DNA from: Actinobacteria bacterium IMCC19121
GTDB taxonomy: Bacteria; Actinomycetota; Actinomycetes; Nanopelagicales; Nanopelagicaceae
DNA length: 64,000 nt
NCBI GenBank assembly: GCA_002284895.1
Contig: CP015605.1
Coordinates: 1-64,000, forward strand
Direction of reading: 5' to 3'
The notes under the pieces were generated by a model. That model saw only the letters and a program-made list of their open reading frames with translations. It was not told the DNA's origin and did no database searches. The stretch's first letter is position 1. Each line of letters begins with the position of its first letter. The position numbers and the translations under genes were made by a program. Positions 21,680 to 28,813 of the stretch are shown here, one piece after another.

Positions 21680-22009
21680 ATGAGCAAATTTGGCACAGTC
21701 AAGGTATCTGGAGGCTCCATGCTTCCCGCATACCGAGATGGGGATTGGCTCTTTGTTAGTTGGATAGATGGAGCCCAAGCATTAACCGCGGTTGGAAACT
21801 CTATTGTCGGCAAGGTCGTTGTAATAGAGCGAGAAGAGAAGCCGGGAATCTTTTTAGTTAAACGTGTGCAGAAGTTTCACAGTGGCAAATATTGGGTCGA
21901 AGGCGATGCAAACGAGAGCACAGATTCGCGAAGTTGGGGCTGGATAGTTCCAGAGGAAATTGTTGGTGTGGTTCTCTTTCGTTACAAGCGAGGCAAGAAA
22001 CTGGCTTAG
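21680..22009 (+). CDS. sodX: Nickel-type SOD maturation protease (S26 signal-peptidase type)
   Basis: 109 residues. Minimal S26 peptidase core: catalytic Ser in SGGSMLPAYRDGDWL (Ser13) and Lys in IFLVKRV (Lys61), then GDANESTDSRSWGWI. There is no membrane anchor. Such proteins cut the SodN leader so that the nickel-binding His becomes residue 1. The frame is open 84 bases further upstream, but that would run into the sodN leader region and adds nothing conserved. The stop overlaps the kgd stop by four bases on the opposite strand. Confidence 0.9.
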   Translation: MSKFGTVKVSGGSMLPAYRDGDWLFVSWIDGAQALTAVGNSIVGKVVVIEREEKPGIFLVKRVQKFHSGKYWVEGDANESTDSRSWGWIVPEEIVGVVLFRYKRGKKLA

Positions 22010-25000
22010 CGTGTGAATGCTTCGAGCATTAATGCTTTTTGCTCATCTTCATGCAAGTGATGATTTCCAGTTGCAGGTGAAGCTGTTGCTCTGCGAGAAA
22101 TACGACGCAAGATGCGAGAGCCAAATCCGTGACCACCATGTTGTTCTGAGGTGCGAAGTGCGATGTGTGACCAAGGACCTTGATTTGCAGGTTCATCTTG
22201 AACCCACAACAAATTGGCATTTGGATGCTTGTTTGCTTCTGCAACCATTTCATCAATTGGTAGTGGATACAAAAGCTCAACCCGAACAATTGCAGTTGAA
22301 GTTTCGCCTAGCTTTGCACGCTCTGCAACTAGGTCGTGATAGACCTTGCCTGAACAGAAGATCACGCGAGAGGCGTTGCTAACTGAATCATCACTAATTA
22401 CTGGTTGGAAGTAACCTGAAGTGAAATCACTTAAAGCTGAAGCTGCAGCTTTTAAGCGCAACATTGATTTAGGTGTGAAGACAATCATTGGGCGACGAGC
22501 AGGGTTCTTTGTATGCCAGCGCAGTAAGTGGAAGTAAGAAGCAGGAGATGATGGCTGAGCCACGGTCATGTTTTGCTCAGCGCATAGTTGTAAGTAGCGC
22601 TCAATACGTCCGGATGAGTGATCTGGTCCTTGGCCTTCATAACCATGCGGCAAAAGCAAAACAACCGATGAGCGCTCACCCCACTTTTGAAGGGCAGAAG
22701 AGATGAATTCATCAATGATTGTTTGTGCGCCGTTAGCAAAATCTCCGAATTGGCCTTCCCATAAAACTAGGGCTTCTTCGCGCTCAACGCTATATCCATA
22801 TTCAAATCCCATGGCCGCATATTCACTGAGCAAAGAGTCAACGACAAAGAATTGATTCACATCAGATATCAATGCGCGAAGCGGAGTCCACTCATTACCG
22901 TTTTCTTTATCAACGATTACTGCGTGACGGTTGGAGAAAGTTCCACGTCGCGCATCTTGACCAGCAAGGCGAATTGGGCGACCTTCTTTAAGAAGTGAAC
23001 CAAATGCCAACATTTCTCCAGTTGACCAATCAATAGATGCGTCATTAAGAGATTCAACGCGCTTAGCCAACTGCGGTGAAAGTTTTGGATGAATACTAAA
23101 GCCATCTGGAGTTGCGATTTGTGTGGCAGCAATTTCGCGCGCAAGCTCTTCTGGAATTGAAGTAACAATCTTGTTTGCATCCGGTGCAACTGGTGCCTTG
23201 AAGTTTGGATTAGTTTCAGCACTTAAATTGTTAACTGCAGCAAAAACTGCTTCCAACTGAGTTTGATAGTCACGTGCTACTTCTTCTGCCTCTTCAACTG
23301 TGATATCGCCTCTACCAATAAGTGCTTCGGTGTAGAGGTGGCGTGTAGAACGCTTTGCATCAATGAGTTTGTACATTAATGGCTGAGTAAAGCTTGGCTC
23401 ATCGCCTTCATTGTGACCACGACGGCGGTAGCACACCATGTCTATGACAACATCTTTATTAAATGCTTGGCGGTATTCGAAAGCTAAACGAGCAATGCGC
23501 ACACAAGCCTCTGGATCATCACCATTAACGTGGAACACAGGGGCCTGGATAATCTTGGCGAAATCAGTTGAATAGCGTGAAGAACGTGCTGAACTTGGTG
23601 ATGTTGTGAAGCCAACTTGATTATTAATAACAATATGGATGGTTCCGCCGGTGCGATAGCCAGCTAATTGAGACATCTGAAGTACTTCTGCGTTAACTCC
23701 TTGGCCAGCAAATGCTGCATCACCATGGAGCAAGATTGGCAGCACTGAGTAAGCATTCTTGATATTGAGACGATCTTGCTTAGCGCGAACAATTCCCTCA
23801 AGCACCGGGTTCACAGCTTCTAAGTGTGAAGGATTTGCTGCTAAATAAATCTTTGTTGTTGCACCAGAGTTTGAAGTAAATATTCCTTCAGTACCTAGGT
23901 GGTACTTAACGTCGCCAGATCCTTGGACTTGATTTTCTGCGTAGTGACCTTGGAACTCTTGGAAAATTTGTCCGGCAGATTTACCAGCAATATTTGCCAA
24001 AACATTCAGGCGCCCACGGTGTGGCATACCGATGCATACTTCATCTAACTTCAATTCTGCTGCAGATGAAATCACTGCATCAAGTAGTGGAATGACAGAT
24101 TCTCCACCTTCAAGTGAGAAGCGCTTCTGTCCAACAAACTTAGTTTGCAAGAAGTTTTCAAAAGCTTCAGCACTGTTGAGCTTATGCAGGATGCGCAGTT
24201 GCTCTTCACGAGGGAACTGTTGAACGCCTACTTCAACGCGTTCTTGAATCCATTTGCGCTCTTCTGGGTTTTCAATGTACATGTATTCAACACCTACTGT
24301 GCGACAGTATGAATCACGCAAAATTCCAAGAATCTTACGTAGCAACATGAACTTCTTGCCACCAAAGCCACCAGTTGCAAACTCGCGATCAAGATCCCAA
24401 AGTGTTAATCCATGGTTTTGAACATCTAAATCCGGATGGTTGCGCTGGACATATTCAAGTGGATCAAAATCTGCCATTAGGTGGCCATTGGTGCGATATG
24501 CCTGGATTAACTGCTGGATACGCGCAGTTTTATCGATCTCTTCATCGTGGACAAACTCTTTATCGGCAGCCCATCGGATTGGCTCATATGGGATATGCAG
24601 GGCAGCAAAAATCTCATCATAGAAACCTTCAGCACCCAAAATGTATTCATGCATTCTGCGCAGGAAATCACCTGAAGTTGCGCCTTGAATAATGCGGTGA
24701 TCGTAAGTACTTGTGAGAGTAACGACCTTACTTATCGCAAGACGAGCCAAAGTCTCTTCACTCGAGCCTGCAAATTCAGCTGGATAATCCAAGGCTCCAA
24801 CGCCCAGAATCAAACCTTGTCCTTGAACTAAACGTGGCACAGAGTGAACTGTTCCAATTGTTCCTGGATTAGTAATTGACATTGTTGTGCCAGCAAAATC
24901 TTCAACAGTTAAAGAACCATCGCGTGCTTTTTTAACCACTTCTTCATATGCACTACGGAACTGGGCAAAATCTAGAGATTCACAACCCTTAACTGAAGGT

Positions 25001-25662
25001 ACCAAAAGCTGACGTGATCCATCAGGTTTAGCTAAATCAATAGCAACGCCAAGGTTGATGTGTTCAGGTTTACCAATAGCAGGCTTGCCATCTAGTTCCC
25101 CAAAGAAAGCATTCATCTCTGGCATTGCACGTACTGCCTTGATCATTGCATAAGCGATGATGTGAGTGAATGAAACTTTTCCACCGCGAGCGCGCTTCAT
25201 GTGATTGTTAATAACAATGCGATTATCAATCATTAACTTTGCAGGAACTGCGCGCACTGAGGTAGCAGTTGGAACTGAAAGTGAAGCTTCCATGCTTTGA
25301 ACAACACGGGCAGAAACTCCGCGGATGACTTCAAGAGTTGACGCACTTGGTGTGCTTAAAACTGGCGCAGGTTTAATAACAGGGTCCGCCGGCTTTGGTT
25401 GTGGCGCAGAACTTTCTCGCACAATTGGCTGAACATGTGGAACGGGAGCAACTGGCTCTGGTACTGCCGCTTTTTGTGCAGCCTTAGGAACTGGTGGAAC
25501 GCCTTTAGAAACTGGTGTTGATGACGCCGCAGTAGGAGAACCTGGTTTATTGTTTTTAAAATACTCAACCCACGCAGGGTCTACAGAAGAAGGATCCTGC
25601 AGATAGTGCTCGTACATTTCATCGACGAGCCAATCATTTGCACCAAAATCCTGTGCCGACAC
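22006..25662 (-). CDS. kgd: Multifunctional 2-oxoglutarate decarboxylase/dehydrogenase E1-E2
   Basis: 1218 residues, GTG start with AAGGAG in front. Actinobacterial single-chain enzyme of the TCA cycle: N-terminal E1-type recruitment segment (MSAQDFGANDWLVDEMYEHY), a proline/alanine linker (40-120), an E2 acyltransferase domain (HIIAYAMIKAVRAMPEMNAFF core, and TYDHRIIQGATSGDFLRRMH), then the thiamine-diphosphate E1 domain (GMPHRGRLNVLANI, GDAAFAGQGV, YRRRGHNEGDEPSFTQP). As in relatives there is no lipoyl domain, so it must use another E2. Stop overlaps sodX; 135 bases separate it from the regulator upstream. Confidence 0.95.
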   Translation of the reverse strand: MSAQDFGANDWLVDEMYEHYLQDPSSVDPAWVEYFKNNKPGSPTAASSTPVSKGVPPVPKAAQKAAVPEPVAPVPHVQPIVRESSAPQPKPADPVIKPAPVLSTPSASTLEVIRGVSARVVQSMEASLSVPTATSVRAVPAKLMIDNRIVINNHMKRARGGKVSFTHIIAYAMIKAVRAMPEMNAFFGELDGKPAIGKPEHINLGVAIDLAKPDGSRQLLVPSVKGCESLDFAQFRSAYEEVVKKARDGSLTVEDFAGTTMSITNPGTIGTVHSVPRLVQGQGLILGVGALDYPAEFAGSSEETLARLAISKVVTLTSTYDHRIIQGATSGDFLRRMHEYILGAEGFYDEIFAALHIPYEPIRWAADKEFVHDEEIDKTARIQQLIQAYRTNGHLMADFDPLEYVQRNHPDLDVQNHGLTLWDLDREFATGGFGGKKFMLLRKILGILRDSYCRTVGVEYMYIENPEERKWIQERVEVGVQQFPREEQLRILHKLNSAEAFENFLQTKFVGQKRFSLEGGESVIPLLDAVISSAAELKLDEVCIGMPHRGRLNVLANIAGKSAGQIFQEFQGHYAENQVQGSGDVKYHLGTEGIFTSNSGATTKIYLAANPSHLEAVNPVLEGIVRAKQDRLNIKNAYSVLPILLHGDAAFAGQGVNAEVLQMSQLAGYRTGGTIHIVINNQVGFTTSPSSARSSRYSTDFAKIIQAPVFHVNGDDPEACVRIARLAFEYRQAFNKDVVIDMVCYRRRGHNEGDEPSFTQPLMYKLIDAKRSTRHLYTEALIGRGDITVEEAEEVARDYQTQLEAVFAAVNNLSAETNPNFKAPVAPDANKIVTSIPEELAREIAATQIATPDGFSIHPKLSPQLAKRVESLNDASIDWSTGEMLAFGSLLKEGRPIRLAGQDARRGTFSNRHAVIVDKENGNEWTPLRALISDVNQFFVVDSLLSEYAAMGFEYGYSVEREEALVLWEGQFGDFANGAQTIIDEFISSALQKWGERSSVVLLLPHGYEGQGPDHSSGRIERYLQLCAEQNMTVAQPSSPASYFHLLRWHTKNPARRPMIVFTPKSMLRLKAAASALSDFTSGYFQPVISDDSVSNASRVIFCSGKVYHDLVAERAKLGETSTAIVRVELLYPLPIDEMVAEANKHPNANLLWVQDEPANQGPWSHIALRTSEQHGGHGFGSRILRRISRRATASPATGNHHLHEDEQKALMLEAFTR

Positions 25663-25797
25663 TGGCGAACTCCTTCTTGGCGGTTATTAGGTTAAGCCTA
25701 TAGCCATGCGGGGCTGGCTTAAACTAAAAAACTGGCGCTAGAGCGCGAGATAGGCCACATAATCACTGATTTTAAAGCAATGGCATAAGAAGCGGGC

Positions 25798-26682
25798 CTA
25801 GAGGCCTACGGCACGCTCAATCTCGGCCACGGCTTGCGAGAGATCTTCAACGATAGCCACGTCCTTGCATTGATCGTGATTCCACCCAGGCCCACCAAGT
25901 ACTACACGTGGCATTGGTCTAATCGCTGGAATCTCGTTGAAATACTTTGGGTCGGCATTTTTAGATAGCTGTGCCCATAAAAACACTGCTGGTGGCGCTG
26001 ACCGAGAAATCATTGCGCATAAGGCTTCATGTGGAGTTCTGGCTCCGAGAAAGTAGGTTTCGATTTTGCGTTCTGCTAGAGCTGCCGCAAGTGCGTGCAA
26101 TGCCAGTGAATGCATTTCTTCACCCACTGATGCCAATAAGACTGGGTGGGCATTTACAGGTTTCTTAATATCTTCAACATGTTCGCGCAATATCCCTTTG
26201 AGTACTTCAGTGAGCACGTGCTCTACTTCAACGCCTGTCCCACTTGCCTCCCACTCATTGCCAACTAAAAACAAAAGAGGCACGATGACTTCAGACCAGG
26301 ATTGTTGAACTCCATACTGTGCTAAATCTTTGCGCAAGGCCGCTTCAATAAATTTCTTATCCAACCCTTTAGCTGCTTTATGTAAGGCTTCAACTAATTC
26401 TTCGCGAACCACATAATCAGCAACTATTGTTTCAAGATTAATTCTTCCCTTGTGGTTCTTTGCTTGTTCAGCAGCATCACAAGGTGAGACCCCACTGGTG
26501 ATTAATCTGCGCATTAATGTCAGCCGAGCCAAATCCTCTGGGCAGTAACGGCGGTGCTCTCCACTTTCATGGGCAGATGGCCCAAGACCATAACGGCGAT
26601 CCCACGTGCGCAGGGTGGCTGGAGCAACTCCCAAACGGCGTGCGACAGCTGCGACAGTGAGCTGCTCTTCTTTAGTGGCCAC
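25798..26682 (-). CDS. MerR-family regulator with cobalamin-binding domain (CarH/LitR-like)
   Basis: 294 residues from the GTG at 26682; an ATG at 26733 is also open. N-terminal MerR winged helix (TVAAVARRLGVAPATLRTWD, then YGLGPSAHESGEHRRY), a helical segment around 80-165, and a Rossmann-like B12 domain from about 177 (PVLLASVGEEMHSLALHALA, LGARTPHEAL, VVLGGPGW). The helical part has W144-x9-E154-H155, the motif of adenosylcobalamin light receptors, and His191 stands 36 residues on, where CarH has its lower axial ligand. Likely a repressor released by light. It is divergent from whiB. Light sensing is inferred from these residues. Confidence 0.85.
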   Translation of the reverse strand: MATKEEQLTVAAVARRLGVAPATLRTWDRRYGLGPSAHESGEHRRYCPEDLARLTLMRRLITSGVSPCDAAEQAKNHKGRINLETIVADYVVREELVEALHKAAKGLDKKFIEAALRKDLAQYGVQQSWSEVIVPLLFLVGNEWEASGTGVEVEHVLTEVLKGILREHVEDIKKPVNAHPVLLASVGEEMHSLALHALAAALAERKIETYFLGARTPHEALCAMISRSAPPAVFLWAQLSKNADPKYFNEIPAIRPMPRVVLGGPGWNHDQCKDVAIVEDLSQAVAEIERAVGL

Positions 26683-26707
26683 GGGGCAATCGTGGCCTGA
26701 AGTGGGC

Positions 26708-26721
26708 CAACTCACCAGTTG
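26708..26721. repeat. Inverted repeat before the MerR-type gene
   Basis: CAACT-CACC-AGTTG, a perfect five-base dyad 26 bases upstream of the GTG start of the regulator. A candidate site for autoregulation; short enough to be chance. Confidence 0.35.
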
Positions 26722-26732
26722 AAACACGCCCA

Positions 26733-26772
26733 TGAACAACTTCTGGAGCGTTGGGGCTTGAACAACCTATGG
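26733..26772. repeat. Direct repeat in the MerR-whiB intergenic region
   Basis: TGAACAACTTCTGG (26733-26746) and TGAACAACCTATGG (26759-26772) agree at 12 of 14 positions and start 26 bases apart. The second copy abuts the whiB promoter. The MerR/B12 regulator is the obvious candidate ligand. Confidence 0.45.
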
Positions 26773-26781
26773 CGCGGTTGT
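26762..26781. promoter_or_regulatory. Candidate operator overlapping the whiB promoter
   Basis: ACAACC-TATGGCGC-GGTTGT, a perfect six-base dyad with an eight-base centre. Its last base is the first base of the whiB -10 box, so a bound protein would cover the promoter spacer, where MerR-family proteins commonly act. Confidence 0.45.
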
Positions 26782-26786
26782 AGAGT
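26781..26786 (+). promoter_or_regulatory. -10 box of a leaderless promoter for whiB
   Basis: TAGAGT, six bases (ATGGCC), then ATG at 26793. This favours the second ATG over the one at 26787. Confidence 0.6.
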
Positions 26787-26792
26787 ATGGCC

Positions 26793-27095
26793 ATGGCTGA
26801 AATTTCACGTTTACCCCGTCCCGTTGCTGATGAATGGGAATGGCAGTACCAAGGCTCATGCCGCGAGCTCCCAAGTGAGATGTTTTTCCATCCTGATGGC
26901 GAACGTGGCCCACGCCGTCGCAATCGCGAAAACACTGCTAAGGCTGTTTGCGCCACATGTCCAGTAATTGCTGCATGCCGCGCACACGCACTTGCAGTGC
27001 AAGAGCCATATGGAATTTGGGGCGGTCTATCTGAAGATGATCGCTTAGCAATTTTAGGTAAAGAAGTTACTCCAGATATTTCACACGCATCATAG
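26793..27095 (+). CDS. WhiB-family Fe-S regulator, WhiB3/WhiD-like
   Basis: 100 residues. Four cysteines (23, 53, 56, 62) in the C...CxxC...C pattern hold a 4Fe-4S cluster; YGIWGG at 73-78 is the beta-turn that contacts the sigma factor region 4. WEWQYQGSCRELPSEMFFHP and the GERG segment are closest to WhiB3/WhiD as I remember them, and the position beside groEL1-groES-tsaD is that of mycobacterial whiB3. A redox- or NO-responsive transcription factor. Terminated by a strong hairpin shared with groEL. Confidence 0.9.
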   Translation: MAEISRLPRPVADEWEWQYQGSCRELPSEMFFHPDGERGPRRRNRENTAKAVCATCPVIAACRAHALAVQEPYGIWGGLSEDDRLAILGKEVTPDISHAS

Positions 27096-27124
27096 GTTTT
27101 AACTCTCCTCCTGAGTTGAAAAAG

Positions 27125-27156
27125 AAAAGCCCCGCAGATTTTTCTGCGGGGCTTTT
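27125..27156. terminator. Bidirectional terminator between whiB and groEL
   Basis: AAAAGCCCCGCAGA-TTTT-TCTGCGGGGCTTTT: a perfect GC-rich stem flanked by A and T runs on both sides, so it can end both the plus-strand whiB and the minus-strand groEL transcripts. Confidence 0.92.
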
Positions 27157-27172
27157 CTACTGAGTTCTTTTC

Positions 27173-28813
<1,641 letters not shown>

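Follow-up and report, generated by a model that had tools for sequence, protein, structure and literature searches.

A CarH-like MerR-B12 regulator paired divergently with a whiB3-type gene in many actinobacterial families, and a candidate operator between them

A gene for a MerR-B12 regulator (25798..26682, minus strand; 294 aa, GTG start) and a whiB gene (26793..27095, plus strand; 100 aa) form a divergent pair that is widespread in one class of actinobacteria, and the whiB promoter contains a conserved site whose occurrence tracks the presence of the MerR neighbour. Both genes lie in the window, that is, the whole stretch of 64,000 nucleotides from Actinobacteria bacterium IMCC19121 that was analysed. 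An earlier sequence-only reading of this DNA had proposed a regulatory link between the two genes, and the conserved site supports it. In the account developed below, for and against which we judge the case evenly balanced, the protein is an AdoCbl-binding MerR regulator of the CarH/LitR type that acts chiefly on the divergent whiB3-type gene, keeping it blocked in the dark and releasing it in the light.

Distribution and surroundings of the divergent pair

Within the genus of IMCC19121, the MerR-B12 protein was found in 30 of 37 genomes (that of IMCC19121 included; one copy is cut by a contig end); the other seven genomes, all less than 90% complete, gave a match of HTH length only (five) or no match (two). 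An adjacent, divergent WhiB gene is present at 28 of these 30 loci, and the remaining two stop at the end of a contig. Among loci on named contigs the pair occurs in 76 of 80, with less than 500 bp of contig on that side in the other four; the nearest of these loci belongs to actinobacterium SCGC AAA044-N04 (99%), and the label Candidatus Planktophila or acI recurs among several further relatives. Across the class, the pair was counted in at least 78 of 296 genomes from 19 families (a lower bound), and a set of 96 divergent-pair loci, selected for good MerR matches, spans 21 families. The same divergent pair is thus present in related genomes. The idea that it is confined to planktonic actinobacteria was rejected on the same 21 families, and the earlier description of it as a feature of a planktonic actinobacterium is too narrow. 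In one search, MerR matches were obtained in 34 genomes, 23 of them outside the class; at ten of these outside-class loci (L336-L343, L345, L346), inspected over about 1.5 kb on each side, no WhiB match lies beside the MerR-B12 gene.

The start of the MerR-B12 gene (26682) and the likely start of WhiB (ATG 26793) are separated by 110 bp. Two in-frame ATGs are available for WhiB, at 26787 and 26793; the latter is likelier, because ATG 26787 falls between the proposed -10 element and the proposed transcript start. The WhiB protein scores above the PF02467 cut-off (Pfam) and carries the marks of class III, namely the Whib domain, four cysteines (Cys 23, 53, 56 and 62) with a CxxC, and GIWGG from residue 74. 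We therefore read it as a class III (WhiB3/WhiD-type) protein, in agreement with the description of a WhiB3-like gene facing the regulator across about 110 bases. WhiB-family proteins hold a [4Fe-4S] cluster and respond to redox state and NO, and the clusters of WhiB3 and WhiD react with O2 and NO, as summarized in the available part of a family review (PMC6282962). On the far side of whiB, groEL (27173..28813, minus strand) is a conserved neighbour and probably lies outside the switch. On the other flank, kgd (2-oxoglutarate dehydrogenase; 22006-25662), on the same minus strand, begins 135 bp (25663-25797) after the end of the MerR-B12 gene. The kgd gene is also downstream of the MerR-B12 gene in L002 and L003, and read-through from the regulator gene into kgd is possible.

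Gains and losses are visible at several points of the class. Three genomes of a sister genus (g26; 1.2 Mb) have only weak MerR matches (E 8e-5 or worse), and none of their WhiB matches reaches E 1e-20, the best being 44-46% identical; judged by these matches, MerR-B12 and whiB have both gone from the three genomes. At three loci of family f9 (L036, L075, L123), MerR-B12 and groEL are immediate neighbours without a WhiB gene separating them, so that whiB cannot be the sole target of the regulator everywhere. In this family the regulator outlives its presumed whiB target. Conversely, families f4 and f19, which we take to be mycobacteria and Streptomyces, have WhiB3/WhiD orthologues without an adjacent MerR. 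On a tree of 90 MerR-B12 rows (L040, L043, L097 and L105 excluded; 7 of 44 genus loci retained), the pair label can be explained by 7 changes, whereas shuffled labels required 25.2 on average and in none of 500 shuffles so few. Lone LitR-like clades fall among the pair rows in this tree, whose reading is limited by weak forks (32 of 87 inner forks with less than 80% SH-aLRT support) and by a long branch to the Thermus root. A speculative and, in our view, doubtful extension would be an ancient class-wide photoswitch in which an AdoCbl-dependent MerR protein first put a WhiB3-type regulator under light control; the carotenoid-controlling LitR of Streptomyces would be a later derivative that gave up its tie to whiB and, in several lines, also the capping Trp, and mycobacterial WhiB3 would be an orphan of the switch.

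Fold, cap residues and cofactor supply

A Pfam search of the MerR-B12 protein placed MerR_1 (9-72), B12-binding_2 (97-166) and B12-binding (181-267) all above cut-off, corresponding to an HTH at about 9-72, a four-helix bundle at about 97-166 and a Rossmann B12 domain at about 181-267. With the predicted fold, these matches reproduce the CarH architecture of MerR HTH, B12-binding_2 and B12-binding domains. The AlphaFold2 model has a mean pLDDT of 91.3, and its residues 93-289 match CarH structure 8c73 with Z 19.8 (2.4 Å over 191 residues); the Z score is 19.6 for CarH 5c8d, at the same level for photocobilins (20.8), and 17.8 for AppA SCHIC domains. On the NCBIfam CarH equivalog model the protein scores 100 bits, below the cut-off of 400.

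The cap residues W144, E154 and H155 (W144-x9-E154-H155) and H191 at the lower-ligand position are all found where the sequence-only reading had placed them. The phmmer alignments with solved structures put W144 opposite the Trp, and E154-H155 opposite the Glu-His, of Thermus CarH/LitR (3whp, E 2.5e-18; 5c8d) and H191 opposite the His of 'GERH' in Thermus CarH, so that the Wx9EH cap and the lower-ligand His are in register with CarH. From H155 to H191 there are 36 residues; the corresponding distance in Thermus CarH, from His142 to His177, is 35 (PMC11796333, available part), which agrees with the near-CarH spacing noted before. The set of W, E-H and H is complete in 91 of the 96 divergent-pair loci and in all 80 named-contig loci, which argues that it is more than a chance resemblance. 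The adenosyl-capping Trp itself is present in 93 of 96 pair rows. Five rows depart from the set: L034 and L081, with Phe instead of Trp, L064, with Glu-Arg, and the doubtful rows L086 and L105, which were apparently translated in wrong reading frames. The 33 non-pair rows include 11 with Gln and 2 with His in place of the Trp. A class-wide alignment of 30 pair members shows no variation at E154, H155 or H191, and conservation of at least 90% at W144.

The description of this protein as having the full light-receptor residue set stands for the cap and the lower ligand, but not for two further positions. CarH His132, the upper ligand of the light state, is Glu145 here; none of the 96 pair rows (L086 and L105 with doubtful frames) has His at this position, and E, A or Q occurs there in all 80 named-contig loci. 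Of the GxxW, GxxH and GxxxP signatures given for CarH and class I LitR (PMC11796333, in part), GxxW (G141-W144) and GxxxP (G213-P217) are present, whereas GxxH reads ExxH, with Glu188 in place of Gly and G187 one position off. The H132A variant of Thermus CarH is described as mostly tetrameric in the light, that is, with light-driven disassembly largely lost, although an earlier study cited there reported disassembly without His132 (PMC10442372, in part). CtMerR, with Arg at the His132 position, disassembles in the light and is a working AdoCbl photoreceptor (PMC11796333, in part). Given that H132A CarH stays mostly tetrameric and yet CtMerR disassembles, Glu145 weakens the case for a light response without excluding it.

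AdoCbl is plausibly present in the cell. The IMCC19121 genome encodes a PF01923 adenosyltransferase, and an ECF transporter whose subunits include a CbiQ-like one and a fused double ATPase (L286:2859-6795; genome positions about 1155358-1159294), likely a corrinoid importer, lies 3' of a cobalamin riboswitch match that is below threshold (23 bits against a gathering score of 31.5). Higher riboswitch matches, of 31.4 and 35.4 bits, occur in G184 and G175 beside the same gene, aldo-keto-reductase-like as named by sight; transporter genes follow the match in G184, but not in the stretch of G175 that was read. No MetH-length B12 protein was found in the IMCC19121 genome, where the PF02310 matches are the MerR-B12 regulator and an MtgC-like corrinoid protein. 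The latter belongs to a cluster (L285:4423-9591; about 795422-800590) with an MTTB-like methyltransferase, a pterin-binding methyltransferase and an MTHFR-like gene, which points to betaine-type demethylation in a genome without a MetH-length B12 protein. It is the adenosyltransferase, the ECF transporter with its sub-threshold riboswitch and the MtgC-like protein together that argue for AdoCbl in this organism.

A candidate operator and its interpretation

Alignment of the genus intergenic regions revealed a conserved block, TTGAACAACCTATG...CGGTTGTA, just 5' of whiB. From this alignment and a class-wide matrix we propose a whiB promoter with a MerR-B12 operator at 26758..26786 (plus strand), consisting of a -35 element TTGAAC (26758-26763), a 17-bp spacer and a -10 element TAGAGT (26781-26786), with an inverted repeat ACAACC-N8-GGTTGT (26762-26767 and 26776-26781); TTGAACAACCTATGGCGCGGTTGTA covers the -35 element and the spacer. 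The whiB mRNA is proposed to start at or near 26793 and to be leaderless. A second, weaker copy of the site, ATGAACAACTTCTGGAGCG (26732..26750, plus strand), lies 26 bp further upstream as a direct repeat and is found in some members of the genus; situated between both promoters, it could allow cooperative binding. The MerR-like BldC forms multimers on direct repeats (PMC5859096, in part). In the opposite direction, the genus alignment suggests a MerR-B12 promoter at 26689..26717 (minus strand; TGGTGA 26717-26712, 17 bp, CACGAT 26694-26689), from which the mRNA would be leaderless at GTG 26682. Nothing in 25650-27200 was called as a sigma-70-like promoter by a generic scan; counted by hand, 8 of the 12 positions of TTGAAC/TAGAGT agree.

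The same motif is readable in many other families. With a matrix seeded from 69 of the 96 pair regions, rebuilt without the family being tested and compared with 100 letter shuffles per region, the motif beat every shuffle in 90 of the 96 pair promoters and in 18 of 21 families; it was found in none of the six pair promoters of f21, f26 and f32. The f26 promoters L089 and L101 carry other repeats such as CTGAACAAGTT instead, and an operator switch in this family is possible. Since the -35 and -10 elements lie inside the motif, it might represent the whiB promoter alone or the site of another factor, for example WhiB itself, with the MerR gene merely adjacent. The full matrix, compared with 100 shuffles, found the motif in 0 of 13 whiB3/whiD promoters (families f4, f18 and f19) from genomes whose MerR matches are only weak (E 4e-6 or worse). 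Family f18 holds both states, L037, L108 and L122 having both MerR and motif and L235, L238 and L242 neither; no other evidence ties the motif to the MerR protein as strongly as this, together with the 13 controls. The MerR HTH, moreover, is 54-75% identical where matched alone across the class. A motif independent of the MerR protein is accordingly very improbable, and on these sequence comparisons the MerR-B12 protein very probably acts directly on the whiB promoter. It would do so as a repressor, which we consider probable, if on indirect grounds, given that the whiB spacer of 17-18 bp is of ordinary length. Classic MerR activators have spacers of 19-20 bp, against an ordinary 17 bp, and their sites lie between -35 and -10. 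Binding to the whiB spacer in aid of polymerase, in the manner of these proteins, would fit the position of the inverted repeat between the two elements, the weakness of both hexamers and the absence of a called promoter; the spacer of 17 bp here and 17-18 bp in the other sites read by eye, and the fact that CarH is a repressor, make such activation distinctly unlikely.

As to the ligand and the signal, AdoCbl is the ligand with good probability, and light as the physiological signal is modestly favoured. That the B12 fold is a mere scaffold with another ligand or none, as in class II LitR or AppA-like domains, draws on the resemblance of the model to the AppA SCHIC domains and is very improbable against the invariance of H191 and E154-H155 in 30 of 30 aligned pair members. 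The regulator could instead sense AdoCbl status, reporting B12 sufficiency to the WhiB3 regulon with photolysis incidental: the same residues would bind AdoCbl, the His132 equivalent is absent, and B12 supply may vary in a cell with an apparent corrinoid importer and no MetH-length B12 protein. A capping Trp is unnecessary for plain corrinoid binding, and its conservation among the pair rows speaks against a status sensor. Nor does the pair track B12 use, the adenosyltransferase (PF01923) being also present in the three sister-genus genomes that lack the pair; overall we regard a status sensor as rather unlikely. Also adverse to the light-receptor reading are growth data from two other species of freshwater actinobacteria, which favour a blue-light sensor (PMC8591293, in part), whereas CarH is described as a green-light receptor (PMC11796333, in part).

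In the light-receptor reading, AdoCbl would be held in the dark between H191 and the W144/E154/H155 cap and would cause assembly of the MerR-B12 protein, as in CarH. Assembled on the site over the whiB -35 element and spacer, it would block RNA polymerase; light, by splitting the Co-C bond, would dissociate the assembly and permit whiB expression, and the Fe-S protein WhiB would then add redox or NO information to the transcriptional output.

Each of 17 genus genomes has a single exact match to the operator pattern, at whiB, and the three sister-genus (g26) genomes have none; the pattern was built from the genus itself, so that only its absence elsewhere is informative. With one mismatch, 20 genomes yielded four further places and the second copy at whiB, against 16 for a reversed control. 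In the IMCC19121 genome, a loose one-mismatch pattern matched 24 times, twice at whiB, and its reversed control 11 times, a difference that leaves room for further weak sites; the sole match of a tighter pattern besides whiB lies inside a coding frame resembling folK. By these pattern counts a wide regulon in this genome is not supported. Other families contributed 45 pair-bearing genomes with 33 matches in total: 26, each in a different genome, are at whiB, and seven lie away from whiB, in five genomes; 18 genomes have no match, and the reversed pattern gave 0 in all 45. Seven matches away from whiB against none in the control suggest that there are probably further MerR-B12 targets outside the genus. 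Two of the seven, exact matches to the class-wide operator pattern in small f5 genomes, lie 5' of a gene for a fasciclin-domain protein (L316; G068:C9:13811-13832) and of one for an MFS transporter (L317; G040:C13:5196-5217), possible extra members of the regulon.

Comparison with known systems

The pair provides a candidate light (or B12) input for a WhiB3-type regulator in many actinobacterial families and, if the account is correct, would couple redox control to light or B12. It offers a testable explanation of why whiB3-type promoters differ between lineages, with a defined operator now at hand for testing. According to a light/dark study of two other species of freshwater actinobacteria, the protein that senses light is still to be identified (PMC8591293, in part). 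The pair had been thought undescribed; a literature search that left most subscription journals and all bioRxiv preprints outside found no publication treating it, as judged by titles and opening lines of abstracts, and the available portions of two reviews, one on the Wbl family (PMC6282962) and one on developmental genes in actinobacteria (PMC4255298), draw no link between MerR and WhiD. The parts are of known kinds; as far as searched, their class-wide pairing with a phylogenetically footprinted operator has not been described.

With CarH and class I LitR of Thermus, Bacillus megaterium and Myxococcus, the MerR-B12 protein shares the HTH, bundle and Rossmann domains, the Wx9EH cap, the lower-ligand His and GxxxP. 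It differs in having no His after the Trp and Glu for the Gly of GxxH, and it faces whiB rather than carotenoid genes. Its identity in structural alignments is 27% to Thermus CarH and 18% to CtMerR of Chloracidobacterium (8jbs), which is likewise an AdoCbl-dependent MerR photoreceptor without a His132 equivalent, having Arg there (PMC11796333, in part). Photocobilins, in which a bilin-binding domain stands behind the B12 domain, contrast with the MerR-B12 protein, which has no such domain, its 294 aa extending a short way beyond the B12 domain.

The LitR of Streptomyces (litRS region) resembles the 'lone' MerR-B12 relatives of the tree, with no adjoining whiB and W-x10-EH in the f19 rows. The lone f19 loci L087 and L093 lie beside photolyase genes, with a sigma-factor gene in L087 and an amine-oxidase-type gene in L093. 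These neighbours match what we take to be the litR/litS gene order, and the lone f19 genes presumably encode Streptomyces LitR. On the other side of the pair, the four cysteines and GIWGG of the WhiB protein are common to WhiB3, WhiD and WhcB (class III Wbl), identity being 54-70% among the matches listed outside its own family, and groEL is nearby in many loci. What sets the present whiB gene apart from the 13 orthologues in genomes without this MerR is its promoter, which carries the MerR-linked site.
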